Assembly: GCA_011191875.1 (NCBI GenBank)
Contig: DUFC01000032.1
Span: 60,012 to 96,840 of the forward strand
Direction of reading: 5' to 3'
From: Dehalococcoidia bacterium
GTDB lineage: Bacteria; Chloroflexota; Dehalococcoidia; Dehalococcoidales; W498
Length of the DNA: 36,829 bases
The translations under genes were made by a program, and so were the position numbers. Below the pieces are notes generated by a model. The model was not told the DNA's origin, made no database searches, and was given only the letters and a program-made list of their open reading frames with translations. Each line of letters starts with the position of its first letter. Position 1 is the stretch's first letter. Below, in pieces: positions 15,145 to 28,992 of the stretch.

Positions 15145-16122
15145 ATGGCTAAACCAAAGGTTGCTTTTTACTGGTGTGCTTCGTGTGGTGGATGCGAGGA
15201 GACAGTCGTTGACCTTAACGAAGACCTGCTGAAGGTAGCTGATGCTGTAGACATTGTACTATGGCCGGTGGCACTGGACTTTAAGAGGAAGGATATTGAA
15301 TCTCTAAGCGACGGAGAGATAGCGGTGAGCTTTATAAATGGGTCAGTAAGGCTAGAAGAACAGGAGGAGATGGTAAAGCTCTTGAGGCAAAAATCTGGTC
15401 TTGTAGTTGCCTTTGGTGCCTGTGCTCATTTAGGAGGCATACCAGGGCTTGGGAACTTCTGGACTAAGGACACGATTTTCCAGAGAGTTTATAAGGAAGT
15501 CCCAACCGTTGAAAATCCAGAGGGAATTACTCCACAAGAGAAGACTGTTTTTAATTTTGGCGAAATTACCCTGCCGGAATTCTATGATACGGTAAAGACT
15601 TTAAACCAAACCATCCCTGTGGATTATTACCTCCCTGGATGCCCGCCACCGCCTGATTTAATAATGAATGCAGTAAATGCCATTTTAAAAGGGGAGCTTC
15701 CAGAGAAAGGGGCAGTGCTTGCTCCTGAAAAATCATTATGTGATACCTGCCCCAGGAAAGAGGGGAAACCGGATAAAATCTCAATAGCAGAGATAAAAAG
15801 GCCATGGGAGATTAAAATGGACCCTGAGAAATGCTTCCTTGAACTAGGAATAATTTGTCTTGGTCCCGTCACCCGTTCGGGATGTGGAGAAACATGCATT
15901 AAAGCTAATCAGCCATGCCGGGGGTGCTTTGGTCCTGTAGATGGTGTTGTAGACCAGGGAGCAAAAGGGCTTTCAGCGATTGCCTCTATATTGGGTATTG
16001 AAGAGGAGAAGATATCGGATGAAGAGGTCAAAAAATTATTCGATGGGCTTGTGGACCCGGCAGGAACATTCTACAGATTTAGCTTACCTTCTTCTCTTCT
16101 TAGAAGAAGGAGAATGGAATAG
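15145..16122 (+). CDS. [NiFe] hydrogenase small subunit, group 3 (MvhG/VhuG-like)
   Basis: 'FYWCASCGGCEETVVDL', 'VVAFGACAHLGGIPGLGN', 'YYLPGCPPPPDLI', C-terminal Cys-rich [4Fe-4S] region; RBS aaaggaggtagag. Confidence 0.92.
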   Translation: MAKPKVAFYWCASCGGCEETVVDLNEDLLKVADAVDIVLWPVALDFKRKDIESLSDGEIAVSFINGSVRLEEQEEMVKLLRQKSGLVVAFGACAHLGGIPGLGNFWTKDTIFQRVYKEVPTVENPEGITPQEKTVFNFGEITLPEFYDTVKTLNQTIPVDYYLPGCPPPPDLIMNAVNAILKGELPEKGAVLAPEKSLCDTCPRKEGKPDKISIAEIKRPWEIKMDPEKCFLELGIICLGPVTRSGCGETCIKANQPCRGCFGPVDGVVDQGAKGLSAIASILGIEEEKISDEEVKKLFDGLVDPAGTFYRFSLPSSLLRRRRME

Positions 16123-16131
16123 GAGGACATA

Positions 16132-17595
16132 ATGAGAAAGATAACGATAGACCCTATAACCAGGCTTGAGGGGCATGGGAAAATAGAAATATTTCTCAAT
16201 GATGACGGGGATGTTGACAAGGCTTACCTCCAGATACCCGAGCTTCGAGGATTTGAGAAGTTCGCTGAAGGAAGACCGGCAGAGGAGATGCCAAGAATAA
16301 CCACCATGATTTGTGGGGTGTGTCCAACGGCTCACCACATGGCATCAGCTAAAACCCTTGATGACCTTTGGAAGGTTGAGCCAACCTCAGCGGCAAAAAA
16401 GATAAGAGAGCTCATGTATTGTGCTTTCCAGGCAGAAGACCATATATTGCATTTCTTCTTCCTTGGCGGTCCCGACTTTGTTGTTGGTCCACAAGCTCCT
16501 GCCGGAGAAAGGAATGTCCTGGGAGTTATCGCCAAGGCGGGGATGGAAGCCGGCGGCAAAGTTATAGAAGTTAGAAAAAGGCTCAGGGGAGTTCTGAGAA
16601 TAATCGGAGGCAAGCCGGTTATGCCTACTTGTGCCTTGCCTGGAGGAGTATCAAAAGCGATTTCCGAGGAGGAAAGAACAGAAATTATAGATACGGGGGA
16701 ATATGCAGTAGAATTCTGTAAATTTGCCCTCGCCCTTTTTGACGATGTAGTGCTTAAAAATAAAGACTATGTTGACCTTGTTGCCGGGGATATTTATAAG
16801 CACAGGACCTATTACATGGGTCTGGTGGATGAAAATAACAAGGTAAACTTCTACGATGGTATGCTCAGAGTGGTTGACCCTAATGGTAAAGAGTTTGCCA
16901 AGTTTAAAGCTCAGGAATACCTTGACCACATTAGGGAGCATGTTGAACCCTGGAGCTATGTTAAGTTCTGCTATCTTAAGAATGTGGGGTGGAAGGGGTT
17001 TGTTGATGGAGAAGACAGCGGTGTTTTCAGGGTAGCCCCGCTGGCTCGGCTGAATGTGTCCGATGGGATGGCAACACCACTGGCTCAGGAAGCCTATGAG
17101 AGAATGTATGAAGTACTGGGTGGAAAACCAGTTCATAATACCTTAGCCTTCCACTGGGCTCGGCTTGTTGAGGCGCTTTATGCATCAGAAAGGGTGTTAG
17201 AGCTTGCCCGCGACCCTGAAATTACTTCCTCCGACATAGTAAACCTACCTACGGAAACTCCAAAGGAGGGCATAGGGGTAGTAGAAGCACCAAGAGGTAC
17301 TCTCCTCCATCATTATCAGACCGATGACAGAGGAATTCTCACCAAAGTCAATCTGATTGTAGCTACTCAGAATAATGCAGCTCCTATTTTTATGTCCATT
17401 GAGAAAGCGGCTAAATCGCTTATACACAAAGGCGAAGTCCCTGATGGGATTCTCAATATGATTGAGATGGCATTTAGAGCCTATGACCCCTGCCACGCCT
17501 GCGCCACCCATTCACTTCCGGGAAGGATGCCGCTTGAGATATATGTATATGACTCTAAAGGGGACTTGGTACAGAAATTGAGAAGAGGTGAATAA
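16132..17595 (+). CDS. [NiFe] hydrogenase large subunit, group 3 (MvhA/VhuA-like)
   Basis: 'ITIDPITRLEGHGKIEIFL', L1 ICGVCPTAHH, L2 DPCHACATH followed by a C-terminal peptide expected to be processed. Confidence 0.95.
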   Translation: MRKITIDPITRLEGHGKIEIFLNDDGDVDKAYLQIPELRGFEKFAEGRPAEEMPRITTMICGVCPTAHHMASAKTLDDLWKVEPTSAAKKIRELMYCAFQAEDHILHFFFLGGPDFVVGPQAPAGERNVLGVIAKAGMEAGGKVIEVRKRLRGVLRIIGGKPVMPTCALPGGVSKAISEEERTEIIDTGEYAVEFCKFALALFDDVVLKNKDYVDLVAGDIYKHRTYYMGLVDENNKVNFYDGMLRVVDPNGKEFAKFKAQEYLDHIREHVEPWSYVKFCYLKNVGWKGFVDGEDSGVFRVAPLARLNVSDGMATPLAQEAYERMYEVLGGKPVHNTLAFHWARLVEALYASERVLELARDPEITSSDIVNLPTETPKEGIGVVEAPRGTLLHHYQTDDRGILTKVNLIVATQNNAAPIFMSIEKAAKSLIHKGEVPDGILNMIEMAFRAYDPCHACATHSLPGRMPLEIYVYDSKGDLVQKLRRGE

Positions 17596-17604
17596 GAAGT
17601 AAAC

Positions 17605-18015
17605 ATGAAGCAGGAAACAGGGCAAGTAGATTTATTAAGAAAGTCTGGATATTCAGATAAAGCGATAGACTATGTCATAAACAGAGTGAATGTTGGGGAG
17701 ATAGAGGAGCCGGATGCTTGTGTTGCCTATACTGGCCCTTGTGGCGACACAATGCAAATCTATTTAAAAATTGACAACGATAGAGTAATTGAGGCAAAAT
17801 TCCAGGCAATAGGATGTGCCGGTTCCTATGCGGCTGGCTCGGCTCTCATGGAAATGATAAAAGGGGAAACACTGGAGCAGGCGGAGAAAATAAGCGTGGA
17901 TGAAGTAATAAATCATTTGGGCGCTATTCCGCCGCCTAAAATTCACTGCGCTTGTTTAGCTAAAAGAACTTTAGAACAAACCATTGAACAATACAGAAGC
18001 AGGACTGAAAAGTGA
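17605..18015 (+). CDS. NifU/IscU-like Fe-S scaffold-domain protein
   Basis: 'CGDTMQIYLKIDNDRVIEAKFQAIGCAGSYAAGSALMEMIKGETLEQA...HCACLAKRTLEQTI' matches the NifU_N fold with its three conserved Cys. Confidence 0.85.
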   Translation: MKQETGQVDLLRKSGYSDKAIDYVINRVNVGEIEEPDACVAYTGPCGDTMQIYLKIDNDRVIEAKFQAIGCAGSYAAGSALMEMIKGETLEQAEKISVDEVINHLGAIPPPKIHCACLAKRTLEQTIEQYRSRTEK

Positions 18016-18488
18016 AAACACTCATTTTAGGGTTTGGAAATCCAATTCTCACCGATGATGGAGTAGGAATCAGAATTGCTCAAAAGATTAAAGAGGAAAA
18101 TCCCGATTTGGAAGTAATAGAGACAAGTGAAGCCGGAATTGCACTCATTGATTATGTAGCTGGCCATGATAAGCTTGTTATCATCGATTCTATAAAGACC
18201 GGACAGGGGAAGCCGGGAGAACTCTATAAGCTTGGGCTAGAAGATTTGAAGCCGTTTGTTTATTTTCCCTCATCTCATGGCATAGATATAGCTACTGCAT
18301 TTAAGCTTGGAGAAAGTCTGGGATATAAGATGCCTAAATACACTAGCATATACGCTGTAGAGATAATGGATAATACAACCTTTAAAGAAAAGTGCACCGA
18401 AGAAGTAGAGGGAAGGATACCATTTATTGTAAAACAAATAGTAGAGGAGGAAAATCTGCGAAAAATTTTAAGCCTAAAGGCGGCATAA
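18012..18488 (+). CDS. Hydrogenase maturation protease (HycI/HyaD/FrcD-type)
   Basis: 'LILGFGNPILTDDGVGIRIAQKI', 'ETSEAGIALIDYVAGHDKLVIIDSI', 'SSHGIDIATAFKLG'. GTG start overlapping the upstream stop. Confidence 0.92.
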   Translation: MKTLILGFGNPILTDDGVGIRIAQKIKEENPDLEVIETSEAGIALIDYVAGHDKLVIIDSIKTGQGKPGELYKLGLEDLKPFVYFPSSHGIDIATAFKLGESLGYKMPKYTSIYAVEIMDNTTFKEKCTEEVEGRIPFIVKQIVEEENLRKILSLKAA

Positions 18489-18551
18489 ACAGTTACATTG
18501 ATGAAGTCGCACAGTTCGTCCCATTATACTAAATAAGGAGGTGAGGTTAAA

Positions 18552-19739
18552 TTGAATGAGCAAGCTATTGAAGAGAAAGTCATTGAAGAGAAAGTGGCGC
18601 TTGAACTAAATGAGGATTATTGCGCTAGTTGTTCTATTTGTTCTTCCCTTTGCCCCTTTGAGGCGCTAAAAAAGGATGAGGAAACTGGTAAGACCGTTCT
18701 AGAAATAGAAAAGTGCCAGGTGTGTGGACTCTGCTACTCTACATGTCCGGCTAAAGCCTTTGATATCATCTATTATGATATTGATTCCTTAACAAGGTAT
18801 CTGGAGAAAGCAAAACAGGAATATGACAGTAATACATTGGTTATTATGTGCAAGGGAAGCGCCCCTGACTTTTCTAAGGTAGAGGAGCTGTTTGGGGTGA
18901 CAAAATACATCCCTCTATCTGTACCCTGTGTTGGTCGCATTCCTGAGGAAGTATTCTTGAAAGCCCTAACTATGGGGATAAGAGCAATTAATATCCTAGC
19001 TTGCGACGATGATTTCTGCCGATTTGACAAAGGAAGCCCGGTCACCGCGCGCAAAATCCTTGCCCTCAATCTTCTGTTAGGACAGCTTGGCTATGGAACA
19101 GGAGCTATAAACCTAAAGCGGAATAACCTCAAGGTAAAAATAGATAAAGACCGATGTATTGCTTGTGGTAACTGTGTCTTTTACTGTCCTTATGATGCCG
19201 CTAAGCTGGAGAGCCCAGGAATAGTCAGTTTTGATTTAGCTGAGTGCAAAGGCTGTGGCCTGTGTGTCGCTATGTGCCCGGCTTTAGCTCTGGAGCTAGA
19301 GAATTGGGAAAGAGAGCGCATTTCAACTTTGATCTCCAAGCTATCATCAGAAATGGAACGACCAAAGATACTAGTATTTCGCTGTCAATGGGCTACTTTT
19401 TCACCACTGGATAACGGGCAATCAGCTCCAAACATTCGCATCATAGATTTACCTTGTGCGGCAAGAGTTGACCCCTTCCATATCTTAGAGGCTTTCCAGA
19501 AAGGCGTAGATGGCGTTTTAATAGCGGCTTGCTCTGAGGATGATTGCAAGCAGGAGAAGGTAAGCGGTAAATCGGAGCACTTGGTAGCGGTACTAGGAGA
19601 AAGACTAAGCCAGATAGGACTTCAGGAGAGGCTTCATTTTTGCACTGTAGCTCCAAGATACCCTGAGAGGTTCAATGGAGAATTAGAGCAGTTCAGCCAA
19701 GAAATAGTAACTATTTGTTCAAAGGAGGGGAGAGAATGA
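18552..19739 (+). CDS. Ferredoxin-MvhD-ferredoxin-MvhD fusion (hydrogenase electron-transfer subunit)
   Basis: Two pairs of CxxCxxCxxxC clusters, each followed by an MvhD-like domain (VIMCKGSAPDF...ILACDDDFCRF; VFRCQWATFSPLD...LIAACSEDDCKQ). TTG start with good RBS (aaggaggtgagg). Confidence 0.85.
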   Translation: MNEQAIEEKVIEEKVALELNEDYCASCSICSSLCPFEALKKDEETGKTVLEIEKCQVCGLCYSTCPAKAFDIIYYDIDSLTRYLEKAKQEYDSNTLVIMCKGSAPDFSKVEELFGVTKYIPLSVPCVGRIPEEVFLKALTMGIRAINILACDDDFCRFDKGSPVTARKILALNLLLGQLGYGTGAINLKRNNLKVKIDKDRCIACGNCVFYCPYDAAKLESPGIVSFDLAECKGCGLCVAMCPALALELENWERERISTLISKLSSEMERPKILVFRCQWATFSPLDNGQSAPNIRIIDLPCAARVDPFHILEAFQKGVDGVLIAACSEDDCKQEKVSGKSEHLVAVLGERLSQIGLQERLHFCTVAPRYPERFNGELEQFSQEIVTICSKEGRE

Positions 19740-20377
19740 TAGTAACGACGCCAAAACCATTGGATGAGGTTTTAGATTTAATTGCCCCCTATAGCAATAT
19801 CTTGATTGTCGGTTGTGATGGCTGCACCACGCCGCCGAGAGGCTTAAGAGAGGCTAAAACTTTAAGTCAATTGCTTGAGCTCGGGGGAAAGCTGAGAAAC
19901 AAAGAGTTTGCATTTGAAGTAACTACCACAACCAAGCAGTGTGATGTTTATTTGACAGCCTCCACACTTAAACCTCAAATGAGTAGGGCGACGGCAGTCC
20001 TCTCTCTAGCTTGTGGCGCCGGAGTGCAAACCATAGCTGGAATTTTCCCTGAGATCCCCGTCTTTCCGGCACAAAACACCCACTTTATAGGAACCGAGGA
20101 GAGGGAAGGAGGCACCTTAGAACAAAGGTGTGCCGCCTGTGGAGATTGCCTCCTGGGTGAGACTGGTGGTATTTGCCCTGTAACCAGATGTACCAAGGGA
20201 TTACTTAATGGTCCTTGCGGCGGGAGTAAAGAAGGCAAATGCGAAGTCGACGACGAAAAGGATTGTGCCTGGAATCTGATATATGAGCGGCTAGAGGAAC
20301 AGGGTAAGCTGGTACTTCTCAAGGTATATCGCCCTGCCAGGGATTACCAGAAAAGTGGCTGGAGGATTACAACATAA
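19736..20377 (+). CDS. MetV-like protein (methylene-THF reductase C-terminal Cys-rich domain family)
   Basis: 'CAACGDCLLGETGGICPVTRCTKGLLNGPCGGSKEGKCEVDDEKDCAWNLIYERLEEQGKL' characteristic Cys-rich C-terminus; ATG overlaps the upstream stop (atga). Confidence 0.85.
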   Translation: MIVTTPKPLDEVLDLIAPYSNILIVGCDGCTTPPRGLREAKTLSQLLELGGKLRNKEFAFEVTTTTKQCDVYLTASTLKPQMSRATAVLSLACGAGVQTIAGIFPEIPVFPAQNTHFIGTEEREGGTLEQRCAACGDCLLGETGGICPVTRCTKGLLNGPCGGSKEGKCEVDDEKDCAWNLIYERLEEQGKLVLLKVYRPARDYQKSGWRITT

Positions 20378-20404: not shown

Positions 20405-22702
20405 ATGGTGCTGGTGAGGGCAAAGAAATTAGCGAAGATAAACGTATGTGGGGTAGTGCAGGGGGTTGGCTTTAGACCCTTTGTTTATCGGTTAGCTTAT
20501 AAACATAATTTGAAGGGTTTGGTACGCAATACCTCAGGAAATGTGGAGATTGAGGTAGAGGGAGAGGAAGAAAGCTGTAAGAATTTCCTGACAGACCTTG
20601 AAGTAGAAGCCCCCCCTATGACACACATTGAAAGGGTTGAAGCCACCTTCTACCCCGTTAAGGGTTATACAGAGTTCAAAATCTGCCAAAGTCTGAGCCA
20701 GGAAGGAAAATACCAGTTAGTATCACCGGATATTGCTACTTGTGAGGACTGCAAGCGGGAGATTTTCAATCCTACCGACCGCCGCTTTTACTATCCCTTT
20801 ACTAACTGCACCAACTGTGGACCTCGATTTACTATCATAGAGGACATCCCCTATGACCGCCCTAAGACTACCATGCGTAAGTTCCAAATGTGCCCTGAGT
20901 GCCAGCAGGAATACGATGACCCCTTGGACCGGCGCTTTCATGCCCAGCCCAATGCTTGCCCTATATGTGGCCCAAGCTTGGAGTTAGTTAATAGTAACGG
21001 TAGCCCTATTGAGCATAGTGATGCCATTAAGGCGACGAGCGAACTCCTAAAAGCAGGGGAAATTTTGGCTATTCGGGGGCTGGGTGGATTTCACCTTGCC
21101 TGCAATGCCACCGGCGAGAAAGCGATAAATCTCCTAAGGACAAGAAAAAGACGGCTGTTTAAACCCTTAGCTGTTATGATGAGCACTTTGGAGGATATTG
21201 AAAGGCACTGCTTGGTATCTGTTAAAGAGAGAAAGCTCCTTCAATCCCCGCAATGCCCGATTGTGCTGTTGAGGTGGAAACATAACTCATCTAACATCTC
21301 TCCAGCAGTAGCCCCAAACCTAAACTACCTCGGGGTTATGCTTCCCTATACCCCTTTGCATCACCTTTTACTAAGGGAGACCGGTATTCCTCTGGTCATG
21401 ACCAGCGGCAACCTTAGTGAGGAACCTATTGCCAAAGATAATGATGAGGCTCTAATAAGACTTAGCGGAATTGCTGATTACTTCCTGTTTCACAATCGGG
21501 ATATTTTTGCCCGATATGATGATAGCGTATATATGGTAGAGGGTGCGCCTCAAGCGATAAGACGGGCGCGGGGTTATGCTCCGTACCCTACTTTTCTTCC
21601 TTTCAAGTCAAAGGAAATCCTTGCCTGCGGGGCAGAGCTAAAGAACACATTTTGTCTCACCAAGGATGAGCATGCCTTCTTGAGTCAGCATATTGGCGAT
21701 ATGGAGAATGAGGAAACTTTAGAGCACTTTGAAAATACTATTGAACTCTACAAAAAGCTATTTCGTATTGAACCTGAAATTATAGCTTATGATATGCACC
21801 CGGAATACCTTTCCACAAAATTTGCCCTTAATTTTGGCTCGGAGCAAGGTCTAAATCTTATCCCAATACAACACCATCATGCCCATATTGTAAGTTGTCT
21901 TGTTGAAAATGAGGTTGAAGGACCTGTTATCGGCGTAGTATTTGATGGTACAGGATACGGCACCGATGGCACCATCTGGGGAGGGGAATTTCTAACCGCT
22001 GATTGGCGCAGCTTTCAAAGGGTAGGGCATCTGGAATATGTACCTCTGCCCGGAGGTGAGGCGGCAATAAGGAAGCCCTATCGTATGGCATTGGGCTATC
22101 TCTATACTCTGTTGGGAGAAGACTTCTCTTTAGAAGGTCTTCCCCTTAGCCAAGTCGAGCCGGTTGAGCTTGAGCTAATAAAACAACAGCTAAAGCGAGG
22201 AATAAACTCTCCTTTAACCTCAAGTGCCGGGCGGCTTTTTGATGCCGTTTCTGCCTTAGCCGGAGTGAGAGAGGAAATAGACTATGAAGCCCAGGCAGCC
22301 ATTGAGCTGGAGATGCTGGCTCCGAACGAAGTGGATGAGCCTGCATTAAAAGCCTATCCCTTCTCCATTATTGAGTATCAAGGAATGAGGCTGGTAAAGC
22401 TGGGAGAACTATTCAACACAGTAGTTCAAGATGTTAAAAATCAAGTCCCTATCCCCATAATATCCCTCAAATTTCATAACACCGTGGCTCAGATAATAAC
22501 CAAGATGTGTAAATTGATTGCCACAGAGACCGGGATAGCTCAAGTAGCGCTAAGCGGTGGCGTTTTTCAAAATAGGCTACTGCTGAAGTTAGCCACCGCT
22601 GCTTTAGACAGAGAAGGCTTTAGTGTACTAACTCACCATCTGGTGCCCTGTAATGACGGCGGCATTTCCCTGGGGCAGGCGGTGATTGCAAATTTTACCT
22701 GA
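20405..22702 (+). CDS. hypF: Carbamoyltransferase HypF
   Basis: Acylphosphatase domain (GVVQGVGFRPFVYRLA), two zinc fingers (CEDCKREIFNPTDRRFYYPFTNCTNCGPRFTI; CPECQQEYDDPLDRRFHAQPNACPICGP), YrdC and Kae1-like domains. Confidence 0.97.
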   Translation: MVLVRAKKLAKINVCGVVQGVGFRPFVYRLAYKHNLKGLVRNTSGNVEIEVEGEEESCKNFLTDLEVEAPPMTHIERVEATFYPVKGYTEFKICQSLSQEGKYQLVSPDIATCEDCKREIFNPTDRRFYYPFTNCTNCGPRFTIIEDIPYDRPKTTMRKFQMCPECQQEYDDPLDRRFHAQPNACPICGPSLELVNSNGSPIEHSDAIKATSELLKAGEILAIRGLGGFHLACNATGEKAINLLRTRKRRLFKPLAVMMSTLEDIERHCLVSVKERKLLQSPQCPIVLLRWKHNSSNISPAVAPNLNYLGVMLPYTPLHHLLLRETGIPLVMTSGNLSEEPIAKDNDEALIRLSGIADYFLFHNRDIFARYDDSVYMVEGAPQAIRRARGYAPYPTFLPFKSKEILACGAELKNTFCLTKDEHAFLSQHIGDMENEETLEHFENTIELYKKLFRIEPEIIAYDMHPEYLSTKFALNFGSEQGLNLIPIQHHHAHIVSCLVENEVEGPVIGVVFDGTGYGTDGTIWGGEFLTADWRSFQRVGHLEYVPLPGGEAAIRKPYRMALGYLYTLLGEDFSLEGLPLSQVEPVELELIKQQLKRGINSPLTSSAGRLFDAVSALAGVREEIDYEAQAAIELEMLAPNEVDEPALKAYPFSIIEYQGMRLVKLGELFNTVVQDVKNQVPIPIISLKFHNTVAQIITKMCKLIATETGIAQVALSGGVFQNRLLLKLATAALDREGFSVLTHHLVPCNDGGISLGQAVIANFT

Positions 22703-22725: not shown

Positions 22726-22956
22726 ATGTGTCTTGCCATCCCAGCACTGATTAAGCTCATAGAAGATAAAGAAGCCGAGGCTGAGATAGGGGGTATAACT
22801 CGGCGGATTAGCCTATGGCTCACCCCGGAAGCAAAAGTAGGCGATTATGTGCTGGTGCACACTGGCTATGCCATTAATATTCTGGATGAAGAGGAGGCTA
22901 AGGAAACTTTGAGGCTCTTACTGGAAATAGCCGAGCTGGCTGAGGAGCAAAGTTGA
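22726..22956 (+). CDS. hypC: Hydrogenase assembly chaperone HypC
   Basis: MCLAIPALI N-terminus; 'VGDYVLVHTGYAINILDEEEAKETLRLL'. Confidence 0.96.
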   Translation: MCLAIPALIKLIEDKEAEAEIGGITRRISLWLTPEAKVGDYVLVHTGYAINILDEEEAKETLRLLLEIAELAEEQS

Positions 22957-24047
22957 GGTTCATCCAGGAATTTCGGAGTTCTGAATTAGCTAAGGGGTTA
23001 ATTTCCCGGATTCATCAGAAATCCAAGACCCAGGCTCGTTTCATGGAGTTCTGTGGTGGTCACACGGTAACCATTTTTAGATACGGAATCCGCCAGGTCT
23101 TACCCAAAACTCTGGAGATGCTCTCCGGACCAGGTTGCCCTGTCTGTGTTACCGCCAACGTTGACCTGGACAAGGCGATTGCTTTAGCTCAAATCCCGGA
23201 TGTAATTATCACCACCTTCGGCGATATGCTCAAGGTTCCCGGCAGCCACTCTAGTTTACAGGAGGTCAACGCCAGCGGTGCTGACATCCGTATGGTATAT
23301 TCCACTATGGACGCTCTTAACCTAGCCGAGGAGAATCCGACTAAGTCCGTGGTCTTCATTGGAATCGGATTTGAGACCACTGCCCCGATTATCGCTGCTT
23401 CTATCCTCCAGGCAGAGGAAAGGAGGATAAGGAATTATTATATCCTTTCCATGCATAAGCTTTGCCCTCCGGTAATCCGAGCCATCCTTGAATCGGGTGA
23501 GGTTAAACTCCACGGGCTGATATGCCCCGGGCATGTAAGTGCTATCATCGGCTCCCACCCCTGGGAATTCATCGCCCGGGATTATGGTATCTCTTGTGTA
23601 ATTTCCGGTTTTGAACCCATAGATGTCCTACAATGCGTTGATATGCTGGTGGCTCAGATTGAAAGTGGTCAGTCTAAGGTTGAAATTGCCTACCGACGAG
23701 GAGTGCATCCTGAAGGCAACCAGCAGGCTCTGAAACTTATGAAACAGGTATTTGAACCTTGCCCCGCTCAATGGCGGGGGATAGGAGAAGTCCCCGATAG
23801 CAGCTTGAAGCTGAAAAAGGAATACCAGCACTTTGATGCTGAGCTTGCCTTTGATATCGACCCCGGACCTACTTACGAACCTGTGGGCTGCATCTGCGGC
23901 GACATCTTGCGGGGGGTTAAAACGCCTCTTGATTGTTCACTCTTCGGTAAAGACTGCACGCCGCAATATCCTATTGGACCGTGCATGGTCTCTTCCGAAG
24001 GTAGTTGTTCTGCTTATTACCTCTATGGAGAAGGTTTTGAAGGATAA
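22953..24047 (+). CDS. hypD: Hydrogenase formation protein HypD
   Basis: 'FMEFCGGHTVTIFRYGIRQVLP', 'LLSGPGCPVCVT'-type motif (MLSGPGCPVCVTA), 'GFETTAPIIAASI', C-terminal Cys cluster. Confidence 0.96.
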   Translation: MRFIQEFRSSELAKGLISRIHQKSKTQARFMEFCGGHTVTIFRYGIRQVLPKTLEMLSGPGCPVCVTANVDLDKAIALAQIPDVIITTFGDMLKVPGSHSSLQEVNASGADIRMVYSTMDALNLAEENPTKSVVFIGIGFETTAPIIAASILQAEERRIRNYYILSMHKLCPPVIRAILESGEVKLHGLICPGHVSAIIGSHPWEFIARDYGISCVISGFEPIDVLQCVDMLVAQIESGQSKVEIAYRRGVHPEGNQQALKLMKQVFEPCPAQWRGIGEVPDSSLKLKKEYQHFDAELAFDIDPGPTYEPVGCICGDILRGVKTPLDCSLFGKDCTPQYPIGPCMVSSEGSCSAYYLYGEGFEG

Positions 24048-25041
24048 AATCATGCTAGCCCACGGCAGTGGAGGGAAACTAGCCCATGAGCTGGTAGAAA
24101 GCAGCTTCCTTAAAGCTCTGGCTAATCCCCTTTTAGCCAAGTTGGATGATTCAGCCGTTTTTAACTTCAGCGGAAGGCTGGCTTTTACTACTGATAGCTA
24201 TGTGGTGAGTCCTATCTTCTTCCCCGGTGGAGATATAGGGAAGCTGGCTGTTTGTGGGACAGTGAATGACCTGGCTATGTCCGGGGCTAAACCACTTTAT
24301 TTAAGCCTTTCTTTTATCATTGAGGAAGGGCTTCCCCAAGGGGAGCTGAGCCAGGTCGTAGATTCTATCCAGAAGGCAGCTCAAGAAGCCGGAGTGGAAA
24401 TTGTCACCGGGGACACCAAGGTGGTACACCGAGGCAGTGCCGATAAGCTGTTTATCAATACTGCCGGTGTCGGCATAATACCGGAAGGAGTCGATATTTC
24501 TGGCAATAATGCCAGATCGGGAGATAAGGTGATTCTAAGTGGCGCTATAGGTGACCATGGAATAGCTGTGCTTAGCCGACGGGAGGGGTTGAGCTTTTCC
24601 ACACAACTTGAGAGTGATTGCGCTCCACTGGGGGGGCTAGTCGCTGACATGTTAGCCGCCAGCTCAAATATCCATTCCCTGCGAGACCCTACCAGAGGGG
24701 GACTGGCTACTACCTTAAATGAACTGGCAAAGCAATCCAGGGTAAGCATAAGAATTGAGGAGGAAAAGGTCTTGGTACGAGACGAGGTCCTTGCCGCTTG
24801 CGAAATGTTGGGTTTTGACCCTCTCTATGTAGCCAATGAGGGTAAGCTGGTGGCTATAGTTCCACCCGAGGATACCGATAAGGTGCTCAAAGTAATGCGG
24901 GAAAATCATTACGGGAAGGAGGCTGCCATCATCGGTGAGGTGAGAGCAGAACATCCCGGTCGGGTGGTAATGAAAACCTGTCTGGGGTCTTCTCGAATAA
25001 TCGACATGTTAGTTGGAGACATACTGCCCAGGATTTGTTAA
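24025..25041 (+). CDS. hypE: Carbamoyl dehydratase HypE
   Basis: 'MLAHGSGGKLAHELVESSF', C-terminal LPRIC with terminal Cys. Start placed at 24025 (or 24052), not the ORF-track 23833. Confidence 0.95.
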   Translation: MEKVLKDKIMLAHGSGGKLAHELVESSFLKALANPLLAKLDDSAVFNFSGRLAFTTDSYVVSPIFFPGGDIGKLAVCGTVNDLAMSGAKPLYLSLSFIIEEGLPQGELSQVVDSIQKAAQEAGVEIVTGDTKVVHRGSADKLFINTAGVGIIPEGVDISGNNARSGDKVILSGAIGDHGIAVLSRREGLSFSTQLESDCAPLGGLVADMLAASSNIHSLRDPTRGGLATTLNELAKQSRVSIRIEEEKVLVRDEVLAACEMLGFDPLYVANEGKLVAIVPPEDTDKVLKVMRENHYGKEAAIIGEVRAEHPGRVVMKTCLGSSRIIDMLVGDILPRIC

Positions 25042-25042
25042 A

Positions 25043-25384
25043 ATGCACGAACTTGCCATTACCAAAAGCATGCTTGACCTCGTCCTGGGACAAGCCGAAA
25101 AGGCTGAAGCCAAGGAAGTGGGACAAATCAACCTGGTTATCGGGGAGATGTGCGGGGTTGTTGATGAGTGCGTTCAGTTCTACTTTAATTTCCTCAGTCA
25201 GGGAACCATCGCTGAGGGGGCTGCCCTTTCCTTCACAATGGTCCCTACAATGGCCCGGTGCCGGGTCTGCGATAAGCCCTTTGAACTTAAAGAATTTGAC
25301 TGGACTTGCCCTTATTGTCAAGGTGACAAGATAGAGATTATAGCTGGTAAAGAGCTATTTGTAGAAAGTATTGAGGTGAAATAA
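25043..25384 (+). CDS. hypA: Hydrogenase nickel insertion protein HypA
   Basis: MHELAITKSMLDLVL start; zinc motif CRVC...CPYC. Start 25043 rather than 25013. Confidence 0.95.
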   Translation: MHELAITKSMLDLVLGQAEKAEAKEVGQINLVIGEMCGVVDECVQFYFNFLSQGTIAEGAALSFTMVPTMARCRVCDKPFELKEFDWTCPYCQGDKIEIIAGKELFVESIEVK

Positions 25385-25411: not shown

Positions 25412-25484
25412 TATCACCCTGAGCAAAGCTAAGAGTCTAAATGCTGCAGAGATTCTTCGCTACGCTCAGAATGACAGAAAACAA
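25412..25484. repeat. REP-like palindromic interspersed repeat remnant
   Basis: caccctgagcaaagctaagagtct ... agattcttcgctacgctcagaatgaca; arms are imperfect inverted repeats (15/20 by eye) and match the widespread 'TTCTGAGCGAAGCGAAGAATCT' type, whose translation gives the 'VILSVAKNL' signature seen in the antisense ORF. Confidence 0.65.
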
Positions 25485-25509
25485 AGAATTAGAGGGGGAA
25501 CTGTTACAA

Positions 25510-26169
25510 ATGGAAATAAAAGTTCTTAAAGACATTCTCGATGCTAATGAACAGATAGCGGAGAGGAACCGGCAGTTACTTGATAGTAACAGTGTATTTG
25601 CTGTGAATCTGATGTCCACACCGGGCGCCGGCAAAACCAGCCTAATTTTGCAAACGCTAAAGGAATTGAAGGGGGAAACTAAAATTGGTGTTATCGAAGG
25701 TGATGTGAGTTCAAGCCTGGATGCTGAGGTAATAGGCAAAGAGGGTGTGCCGGTAATCCAGATAAATACCGGCGGAGAGTGCCACCTTGATGCTAATATG
25801 CTTTCCAGTGCCCTTAATGCCTTGCCTTTACAGGATATCGGACTACTCTTAATTGAAAATGTGGGCAATTTGGTCTGCCCTGCGGAGTTTGCTCTCGGTG
25901 AGAACAAGAAAGTTTTAATTTCAAGCATTCCCGAAGGGGATGATAAGCCATTTAAGTATCCTTTAATGTTCCATACAGTAGATGCTGTGTTAATAAACAA
26001 AATCGACCTCCTACCGTATCTCAAGTTTGATACCGCGGTCTTTTCCCAGGTAATCAAGGGGATAAACGAAAAGGTAGAAATTTTCCAAATCTCTTGTGCT
26101 ACAGGTCAAGGAATTGAACAATGGGTCTCCTGGCTTCAAAGCCAGATGAACCAGAGATATGGTGGGTAG
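25510..26169 (+). CDS. hypB: Hydrogenase nickel incorporation GTPase HypB
   Basis: 'VNLMSTPGAGKTSLILQTL', 'IEGDVSSSLDAEVI', 'ENVGNLVCPAEFALGENKKVLI'. Start placed at MEIKVLKDIL; the upstream 23 codons partly derive from the REP-like repeat. Confidence 0.95.
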   Translation: MEIKVLKDILDANEQIAERNRQLLDSNSVFAVNLMSTPGAGKTSLILQTLKELKGETKIGVIEGDVSSSLDAEVIGKEGVPVIQINTGGECHLDANMLSSALNALPLQDIGLLLIENVGNLVCPAEFALGENKKVLISSIPEGDDKPFKYPLMFHTVDAVLINKIDLLPYLKFDTAVFSQVIKGINEKVEIFQISCATGQGIEQWVSWLQSQMNQRYGG

Positions 26170-26566: not shown

Positions 26567-27394
26567 ATGTCAGAGGGAATGATAATTCCAGAGAAAAAAC
26601 CCTTCTTTGTCAGCAAGACTACCAAGGATTGTCTGGAATCAGCCGCCAAGATGAGCCAGATAAGACCCCAGAATATCTTGGTGAAAGGGATGCAGGGATG
26701 TGGTAAGTCAGAGTTAGCTGAACAGTTCGCAGCCAGACTCCAGAGACCCTTTGCTGGCTTTCAGGTTGGACTGCTAGCCGAGAGTGGGCAGCTATTCGGT
26801 CAACAAGTACTACGAAATAATAATGTACATTATGAGAAGTTTCTGTTCACCGATGCCATCCAGGTCAAGGATGCAGTTATTCTCCTGGATGAAATTAACA
26901 GAGCCGAGAATCCTAAAGCCCTCAATGCCCTGTTCTCCGTGCTGGACGACAGAAGAACCATCTGGATTGATGAAGTTCATAAGCTAATCCCGGTAGCCCC
27001 TGGCGCTATATTCTTTGCTACCATCAATGAGGGGGCAGACTTCACTGGCACTGATACTCTGGATGCAGCTATTTCAGACAGGTTCTTTGTAGTAGAAATG
27101 GGGGTATTACCGGAGGAGCAAGAGAGGGAGTTGCTTGTGCAGAGGACAGGTATAGGAATGGACGAGGCTACCAACCTTGTCTCTGTCTTCAACGGTATCA
27201 GAAGAGGCGATGTGCAGGTTTCAACCAGAAAGGCACTAACTGTAGCCGAACTCATTCAAACTGGCCTGGATTTAAGAGAGGCTTTCATCTTTACTCTAGG
27301 TATTAACAGAGATGAACTGGAGAAGATATTGATTTCTATACATCTAACAACAGAAGAAGAGATGGGGACAACTGAGGAATGGACACTGCTGTAA
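26567..27394 (+). CDS. MoxR-family AAA+ ATPase
   Basis: Walker A GMQGCGKSELAEQ, Walker B VILLDEINRA, 'ALFSVLDDRRTIWIDE', 'FFATINEGADFTGTDTLDAAISDRF'. Confidence 0.88.
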   Translation: MSEGMIIPEKKPFFVSKTTKDCLESAAKMSQIRPQNILVKGMQGCGKSELAEQFAARLQRPFAGFQVGLLAESGQLFGQQVLRNNNVHYEKFLFTDAIQVKDAVILLDEINRAENPKALNALFSVLDDRRTIWIDEVHKLIPVAPGAIFFATINEGADFTGTDTLDAAISDRFFVVEMGVLPEEQERELLVQRTGIGMDEATNLVSVFNGIRRGDVQVSTRKALTVAELIQTGLDLREAFIFTLGINRDELEKILISIHLTTEEEMGTTEEWTLL

Positions 27395-28992
27395 GCTTAT
27401 CCGAACAGTGGAGAATCAACAAGTCAGAAATAAAGGAGCTGGAGTATGTAGAAATACTCCGCAGTTTAAGGCGTTTAGTCGCTTATCACACAAAGCCATA
27501 TGATATTAAATATGTGACCAAAGCTGGAGCACGACCATTTTATGCTGAACATAATGTACACAAAAATATAAAGCCTATTATATACATCAATCCAAAGGTA
27601 GTTAAAGATAGTCACGAGTTCCCCCTACCTGGTGATAAATTTGATGTTCTCTGTGGTTTAACGCTGCATGGATTGGCACACATATTGATAGGTTCGTTTG
27701 ATGTATCCTACAAGTGTTGGGATGATATGTCACGACTGGTGATGGAAGTGGGTGAAGAAATCTGTGCCGATAACTACTTTGCCAAGAACTCTAAGCAATG
27801 GGAATACATCAGAACGGCAAGAGACTTCTATGGCGAAGTTGAAATGCGTTGTAACACAGGTAATCCCCTGCTGGATGCTCTCACCGCTTATACCTCTATG
27901 ATTATCTACAATAAACCGGTTACAGATATAAGTGAGAAAGGTAAAGAGCTTTTGCCCATTATCGAAAGGGAATTCCATGATTTAACCAAGCGGTCTCCCG
28001 ATAACCGTGCGAGAGTTTACAAAGAAGTAGCCAGACAGATACAAGAGAGACTGGGACTTGAAACACAGCAATCCATAGATAACTACATGGGAAAAGGAAG
28101 CCGTGAGCAAGCAGAGAAAGCAAGTGATAACATGCTAAAAGAGTGGGCTGGAGACGAGACAAGTCTAACTCAAAAGGAAGCAGTAGAAATTGAGAAGTTA
28201 CTGGCAGAAGAGGCAACTGATGTTAGCCAGTTAGTATCCTATCTGACTAGTGATTTAACTGATAGAAGTGAAAGGTATTCAAGGCCAAACGCAGTTATTA
28301 CCAAGAATGCTATGACAGTTTCTCAGCAATACTGGGAACCAGATGAGAAGCTGGTTAAAGCTCTATTGTGGCTTCGCAACATCAAGACTTCTAGGGATAC
28401 AGTAATCCTGAGAGCTCAGGAGACTGGTAAGATAGATAAGAGGAGATTATACAGAGCACCGATAGACGGTCTGGTGTTCCGTGATACCAGAACTAAGAAG
28501 AAGATGAAGAAGAACATCTGGCTGTTAATGGACAATTCCAGCAGTATGCGTAGTAATGCCGAAATGTTCAAACTATGTGCTGCCGTCAAGGGTGTTCTTC
28601 CCGAGGCCAGAATTTATTCATATCATGCGACCTACGGGAGAACAGAGATAATACGGCTGGATAGTAGGCGAAGGATGTTAAGTATAAAAGCTGTGGGTGA
28701 CACACCGTCTGGTGATGCAATTCTGTTTGTTGGTCATTTGCTCCAGCAGGCACGCGGTGGTCTCCTTATACATTTTTCTGATGGAGCAGTAAACAGTGGA
28801 ATATCAATAAAGGGTGCTTACCGAGTTATCGAAAAGAAACTGCCAAATGTGGTCTTGATTAACAGTGCCAACGATTTGTGGTACCTCGACTCCCCTCATT
28901 TACGGAGGATACACAATATCCACATAAAAGATGAGGCAGATTTCGCTAAACTCCTGCAAGAAAGCGTGGCTATAGTGTGGGGTTTGTTGTAA
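27379..28992 (+). CDS. VWA-domain protein, MoxR partner (VWA/metallopeptidase-like architecture)
   Basis: MIDAS-like DNSSSM in 'NIWLLMDNSSSMRSNAEMF', 'LIHFSDGAVNSG'; overlaps the AAA+ gene by 16 nt. Confidence 0.8.
   Translation: MDTAVSLSEQWRINKSEIKELEYVEILRSLRRLVAYHTKPYDIKYVTKAGARPFYAEHNVHKNIKPIIYINPKVVKDSHEFPLPGDKFDVLCGLTLHGLAHILIGSFDVSYKCWDDMSRLVMEVGEEICADNYFAKNSKQWEYIRTARDFYGEVEMRCNTGNPLLDALTAYTSMIIYNKPVTDISEKGKELLPIIEREFHDLTKRSPDNRARVYKEVARQIQERLGLETQQSIDNYMGKGSREQAEKASDNMLKEWAGDETSLTQKEAVEIEKLLAEEATDVSQLVSYLTSDLTDRSERYSRPNAVITKNAMTVSQQYWEPDEKLVKALLWLRNIKTSRDTVILRAQETGKIDKRRLYRAPIDGLVFRDTRTKKKMKKNIWLLMDNSSSMRSNAEMFKLCAAVKGVLPEARIYSYHATYGRTEIIRLDSRRRMLSIKAVGDTPSGDAILFVGHLLQQARGGLLIHFSDGAVNSGISIKGAYRVIEKKLPNVVLINSANDLWYLDSPHLRRIHNIHIKDEADFAKLLQESVAIVWGLL

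Follow-up and report, generated by a model that had tools for sequence, protein, structure and literature searches.

The window, that is, the whole 36,829-nucleotide stretch of DNA analysed here, carries a tight operon in which six genes, including those for a [NiFe]-hydrogenase, a tandem ferredoxin-MvhD fusion ([Fd-MvhD]x2) and a MetV-family protein (MetVh), are followed by hypFCDEAB. We propose that electrons from H2 would pass through VhuGA, [Fd-MvhD]x2 and MetVh to MetF2, forming an H2-linked methylene-THF reductase (MTHFR) without Hdr in the operon, a reading built on gene neighbourhoods and trees to which we give about an even chance. Gene content, operon, conserved linkage, conserved cluster ligands and clades are supported directly. 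Acetogen bioenergetics has yet to settle how methylene-THF reductase receives its electrons, and the proposed system, if true, would add a direct hydrogen-fed MTHFR arrangement, found in uncultured Dehalococcoidia relatives.

The window corresponds to C26:60012-96840 (contig C26) of a draft genome of 1.147 Mb, 93.8% complete by the tool's estimate, whose closest relatives are MAGs titled Dehalococcoidia or Dehalococcoidales. All six genes named in the initial annotation (hydrogenase subunits, NifU-like protein, protease, ferredoxin-MvhD fusion and MetV) are present where it had placed them, in the order VhuG-VhuA-NifU-HycI-fusion-MetV at 15145-20377 of the window, and the hyp genes follow on the same strand:

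15145-16122, + strand: VhuG/MvhG-like [NiFe]-hydrogenase small subunit, 325 aa, 13 Cys (PF01058, E 6e-23)
16132-17595, + strand: VhuA/MvhA-like [NiFe]-hydrogenase large subunit, 487 aa (PF00374)
17605-18015, + strand: NifU/IscU-type Fe-S scaffold (NifU_N), 136 aa (PF01592, E 6e-32)
18012-18488, + strand: hydrogenase maturation protease, HycI/HyaD family (TIGR00072, over cut-off)
18552-19739, + strand: [2x4Fe-4S ferredoxin-MvhD]x2 fusion, 395 aa (PF02662 twice, Fer4)
19736-20377, + strand: MetV-family protein (MetVh), 213 aa from the likely ATG (PF12225, E 7e-35)
20405-22702, + strand: HypF (TIGR00143, 838 bits)
22726-22956, + strand: HypC (PF01455, E 2e-25)
22953-24047, + strand: HypD (TIGR00075)
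24052-25041, + strand: HypE (TIGR02124)
25013-25384, + strand: HypA (PF01155)
25441-26169, + strand: HypB (TIGR00073)

The gaps between the six genes are, in order, 9, 9, -4, 63 and -4 bp, with 27 bp before hypF, and the likely ATG of MetVh at 19736 overlaps the stop of the fusion gene as ATGA. The ORF listed for HypE begins at 23833; the TIGR02124 match runs from its residue 72, and the likely start lies near 24052. Promoter and terminator scans gave no excess over shuffled sequences. The best NCBIfam families for the small and large subunits are VhuG (212 bits, below the 450-bit cut-off) and VhuA (410 bits against a cut-off of 800), scores that mark the two proteins as homologues and not as the named archaeal enzyme itself. 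VhuA keeps both NiFe CxxC motifs (ICGVC and DPCHAC) and a C-terminal tail beyond the last motif, and it matches 7t2r_D (E 7e-115) and 5odc_F (E 7e-113) in the PDB. Elsewhere in the window, a 537-aa ORF (27379-28992) without a Pfam match above cut-off sits beside a gene for a MoxR-type AAA ATPase (26567-27394).

The ferredoxin-MvhD fusion of the initial annotation is present, as a tandem duplication and not as the single unit that had been described. Specifically, the repeated unit comprises a two-cluster ferredoxin and an MvhD domain, and 24 cysteines are invariant in an alignment of 14 fusion homologues, 16 in the ferredoxin parts and 8 in the MvhD parts (four per domain), which could accommodate four [4Fe-4S] and two [2Fe-2S] clusters. 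The structure model of the fusion is weak overall (pLDDT 61.6), and its MvhD part alone gave a meaningful Foldseek match, to solved MvhD chains (5odc_D, probability 1.00).

In an alignment of 26 MetVs, including MetF-paired ones, 12 cysteines are invariant and all are kept in MetVh, which thereby has the conserved cluster cysteines of the MetV in MetVF-type (type II) MTHFR (PF12225, 12 Cys). The structure model of MetVh is fair (pLDDT 81.7); a PDB search with MetV found no sequence relative, and Foldseek on the model found no informative match. The 18 MetVs that adjoin [Fd-MvhD]x2, or the version of it fused to GltD, make up a single clade (SH-aLRT 98%), hereafter the MetVh clade. Thirteen of them lie in hydrogenase or hyp operons, two are close to no hydrogenase and no metF (L096, L102), and the remaining three are neighbours of metF or part of an acs cluster. 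The pair of fusion and MetVh adjoins metF without a hydrogenase in L107 and L101 and belongs to an acs cluster in L241. The order in L107 is GltD-Fd-MvhD fusion, MetVh, MetF2, the last two some 50 bp apart, and the L107 genome is without the VhuA clade of the linked loci.

The linkage of MetV to the hydrogenase is conserved. We surveyed 148 genomes of the class, finding VhuA-like genes in 33 and MetV in 56, and scanned GTDB genomes for the fusion protein, which gave 16 loci. VhuG-VhuA-...-HycI-[Fd-MvhD]x2-MetV-HypF lies on a single contig in ten genomes, and the order is kept in every one. Among the hydrogenase regions read, the operon or its parts occur only with a VhuA at least 79% identical to that of the window, and the VhuAs of linked loci form one 12-member clade (99%). 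Furthermore, all 17 genomes with this VhuA clade also encode the MetVh clade, though most of the 17 were found via the fusion protein. Co-conservation of MetVh and hydrogenase is strong, contrary to the lack of it that the initial annotation had named as speaking against its reading. Two of the MAGs with the operon (L099, L100) are titled Deltaproteobacteria; their MetV and VhuA nest among Dehalococcoidales, pointing to mislabelled bins or transfer.

The slot between VhuA and HycI is occupied by NifU in the window and L103, SufC-SufB in L094, L104 and L109, a GltD-like flavoprotein in L099, L103 and L106, EtfBA with an HdrD-like protein in L098, and HdrCBA-MvhD-NuoEF-AsrAB in G127. A GltD-like NAD(P)/FAD protein also follows VhuA in G161 and begins the cut contig of L109, and a free-standing MvhD precedes the fusion in most relatives. 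The presence of NifU or SufCB would fit a high demand for Fe-S assembly.

The initial annotation was correct that the window holds no metF or hdrA, but this is not true of the genome. A genome-wide Pfam and NCBIfam search located two metF, a second metV, mvhD, hdrA pieces and hdrB that share the contig with the window and lie 10-27 kb upstream of its edge:

C26:33181-33549: free-standing MvhD, the sole one outside the fusion in the genome
C26:36475-37212: MetF2
C26:38461-39336: MetF1
C26:40574-40858: second MetV (MetVm)
C26:43710-48665: HdrA pieces
C26:48856-49551: HdrB

The puzzle of a MetV without MetF or HdrABC is therefore mostly a window-edge effect. The notion that the organism has no MetF is rejected by this search, and the suggestion that MetV acts as a scaffold or partner in an organism lacking MetF is not supported, since two metF and one further metV are encoded here. 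The initial annotation had also named a metF-hdr-metV set with its own MvhD as speaking against its reading, and such a set exists upstream. The ORF order there is hdrC-hdrB-hdrA(N)-nuoE-nuoF-[NuoG/HdrA-C]-fdx-nuoE-nuoF-metV, then histidine kinase-metF1-two response regulators-metF2; mvhD, an Fe-S protein gene and AsrA/AsrB-like genes (named by sequence resemblance, partly checked) are divergent from metF2. Both metF1 and metF2 lie about 40 kb from MetVh, and the acs/CODH cluster is on contig C7. The upstream hdrA appears split (C26:43701-48674, L020:4702-9675, - strand) into a 273-aa N-terminal part, nuoE, nuoF and a 592-aa protein that joins a NuoG-type [2Fe-2S] N-terminus to the remainder of HdrA; the split may be a genuine rearrangement or an assembly error. 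A 1662-aa HdrA open frame was rejected, the short HdrA-N and the NuoG/HdrA-C protein being separate ORFs with nuoE and nuoF between them.

These upstream genes could also serve the hydrogenase. In a two-place flavin-bifurcating complex, VhuGA, [Fd-MvhD]x2 and MetVh would join the upstream HdrCBA and/or NuoEF (C26:43-50 kb), and electrons from H2 would be split between methylene-THF and ferredoxin or NAD(P). The potential difference from H2 to methylene-THF, -414 to -200 mV, is sufficient (values from PMC9430772); the GltD-like protein that follows VhuA in four relatives is fused to Fd-MvhD in L107-L109; and the G127 operon contains HdrCBA-MvhD-NuoEF-AsrAB, so Hdr or a flavoprotein may be needed. 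However, the window operon has no flavoprotein gene and no free-standing MvhD (none between 18488 and 18552), a MetV, a MetF and an MvhD of their own accompany the upstream Hdr genes, and the window genome has no close relative of the GltD-like protein (best 35% identity). We consider such a complex unlikely.

Which MetF would pair with MetVh is suggested by the genes left over. Across 20 genomes, every MetF and MetV was scored for a partner within 2.5 kb, three E ~1e-95 matches taken as classical type I MetF being set aside from the orphan count. Eleven genomes, including that of the window, have exactly one metF without a nearby metV and exactly one metV without a nearby metF, and the orphan metV belongs to the MetVh clade in all 11, which are related genomes, several of them fragmented MAGs, and not independent events. 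MetF2 lies directly after acsE in G150, G153, G154 and G156, and the L107 copy falls into a group with these acs-linked ones (96%) and, less firmly, with that of the window genome (87%). There are exceptions: the single MetF found in G157 has its own adjacent, diverged metV, and in G127 and G152 the orphan MetF falls outside MetF2, in a different clade. Matching orphan MetV with orphan MetF one to one points to a specific, testable pairing. The H2-linked complex feeding a one-carbon reductase, as first suggested by the initial annotation, is thus favoured by the linkage, the clades and the orphan pairs, while the complex itself stays a proposal.

Counting against this reading, neither the window operon nor its counterparts in the nine other linked genomes include a metF, and the window operon lacks the free-standing MvhD that most relatives have ahead of the fusion. 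MetVh might instead have been drawn away from MetF to become an Fe-S adaptor from the hydrogenase to ferredoxin or another reductase, as metF never adjoins MetVh in hydrogenase operons and four relatives with the operon (G148, G149, G161, G162) have no metF by Pfam search. Yet in three of the four the acs contig or scaffold breaks at or before the position behind acsE that metF usually occupies. G161 is one record of 1.03 Mb (CP070810.1); although titled 'chromosome', it is a scaffold interrupted by 166 gaps, each exactly 100 N long, and one such gap cuts the MetF gene just downstream of acsE, leaving the metF 5′ end; the acs contig of G148 stops within acsE, and in G162 the break comes shortly behind acsB; and no acs contig was found in the G149 draft. 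The absence of MetF in the four genomes is not evidence, because the drafts are broken or incomplete at acs, and we rejected it as proof of a MetF-independent role. Moreover, MetVh retains every MetV ligand, and a MetVh of the same clade adjoins MetF2 in L107, so the adaptor role is quite unlikely. Gene absences in the G161 record should not be trusted; its separation of hydrogenase and MetVh, considered as counter-evidence, was dropped, as both loci end at scaffold gaps beside an MvhD gene.

That the MetVh gene rides along in a hydrogenase/hyp operon as a passenger, without exchanging electrons with the hydrogenase, is very unlikely: in G150, G155 and G156 the fusion-MetVh pair does lie on another contig than the hydrogenase, and no hydrogenase genes flank it, but the invariant order in the linked genomes, the ATGA-type overlap in the window and the joint presence of the two clades (partly a product of the search through the fusion) argue otherwise.

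We therefore return to the H2-linked methylene-THF reductase. The operon would encode a cytoplasmic Mvh/Vhu-type [NiFe]-hydrogenase, a six-cluster relay and a dedicated MetV. From what is known of the family, VhuGA would oxidise H2; the electrons would enter [Fd-MvhD]x2, possibly via MvhD, and pass to MetVh, as the adjacency of the two in all 18 loci suggests; and MetVh would feed MetF2, the acs-type MetF encoded elsewhere, as L107 and the orphan complement suggest. In sum, this route would carry out H2 + methylene-THF -> methyl-THF, which is the methyl-branch step in the Wood-Ljungdahl pathway. A second MTHFR, MetVm-MetF1, would be served by its own HdrCBA/NuoEF cluster. Physical complex, order of electron flow, MetF2 pairing and reaction direction are all suggested by neighbourhoods and trees. 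MvhD connects Mvh to Hdr in methanogens (PMC12350162); in Sporomusa ovata, MetV interacts with MetF and HdrA, MvhD interacts with MetF, and membranes reduce methylene-THF with H2 (PMC9430772). As a bolder and less likely reading, we tentatively suggest a further Dehalococcoidia MTHFR type, soluble and without HdrABC, in which a hydrogenase would be hard-wired via [Fd-MvhD]x2 to MetV and an acs-type MetF.

Other arrangements were seen in the surveyed genomes. An Fd-MvhD protein, in several cases fused to a GltD-like NAD(P)/FAD domain, directly precedes metV-metF in L107, L101, L136, L155, L163 and L123, which suggests an NAD(P)H-fed MTHFR arrangement without HdrBC. L067 (G101:C27) is a direct hydrogenase plus Hdr-type MTHFR arrangement, with the operon MetV-MetF-HdrC-HdrA-MvhD-VhuG-VhuA-MetF and a second VhuGA copy downstream. 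In addition, VhuA genes in G138:C77, G101:C27 (two copies), G131:C108 and G109:C35 contain a single in-frame TGA, possibly a selenocysteine codon, which separates about 63 aa from the rest.

Four MTHFR arrangements are recognised in acetogens (PMC8760232). A literature search, which mainly covered published open-access papers, found no Dehalococcoidia operon described in which MetV is linked to a hydrogenase. Type III MTHFR, MetVF-RnfC2 (PMC8760232), pairs MetVF with a dedicated electron-input subunit, as proposed here, although its input is the NADH-linked RnfC2 and not a hydrogenase. The MvhAGD-HdrABC complex of methanogens (PDB 5odc) shares MvhG, MvhA and MvhD homologues with the window operon, which differs in lacking HdrABC, in its duplicated and ferredoxin-fused MvhD, and in the added MetV; HdrABC does lie beside the Mvh/Vhu-type hydrogenase in G127 and many members of the class. 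VhuGA operons of same-order relatives (survey family f2), whose VhuA is 46-48% identical to that of the window, occur as HdrCBA-MvhD-VhuGA in G124 and G083 and as VhuGA alone in G098, in genomes without MetV. The hdrABC-mvhD-metVF cluster of the marine Chloroflexi DscP3, where metV/metF is flanked by two-component genes and two different metF occur (PMC5736913), resembles the upstream cluster of the window genome with its metV, histidine kinase, metF1 and response regulators, but no hydrogenase was found in DscP3 and a hydrogenase-linked MetV was not described (PMC5736913).

A close parallel is the HdrCBA-MvhD-MetVF system that Moorella thermoacetica and Sporomusa ovata have as type IV (Hdr-type) MTHFR (PMC8760232, PMC9430772). 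Like the window, which has two MvhD domains in the fusion adjacent to MetVh, it combines an MvhD-type protein with a MetV; the MetV delivers electrons to MetF in type IV and would do so in the window genome. In contrast to type IV, the window operon has a soluble-type VhuGA and a tandem [Fd-MvhD]x2 in place of MvhD; hdrA, hdrB and hdrC are not with MetVh but in the separate upstream cluster with another metV; and metF is outside the MetVh cluster, whereas the same-clade MetV of L107 has metF beside it. The window system would thus be a variant beside type IV MTHFR.
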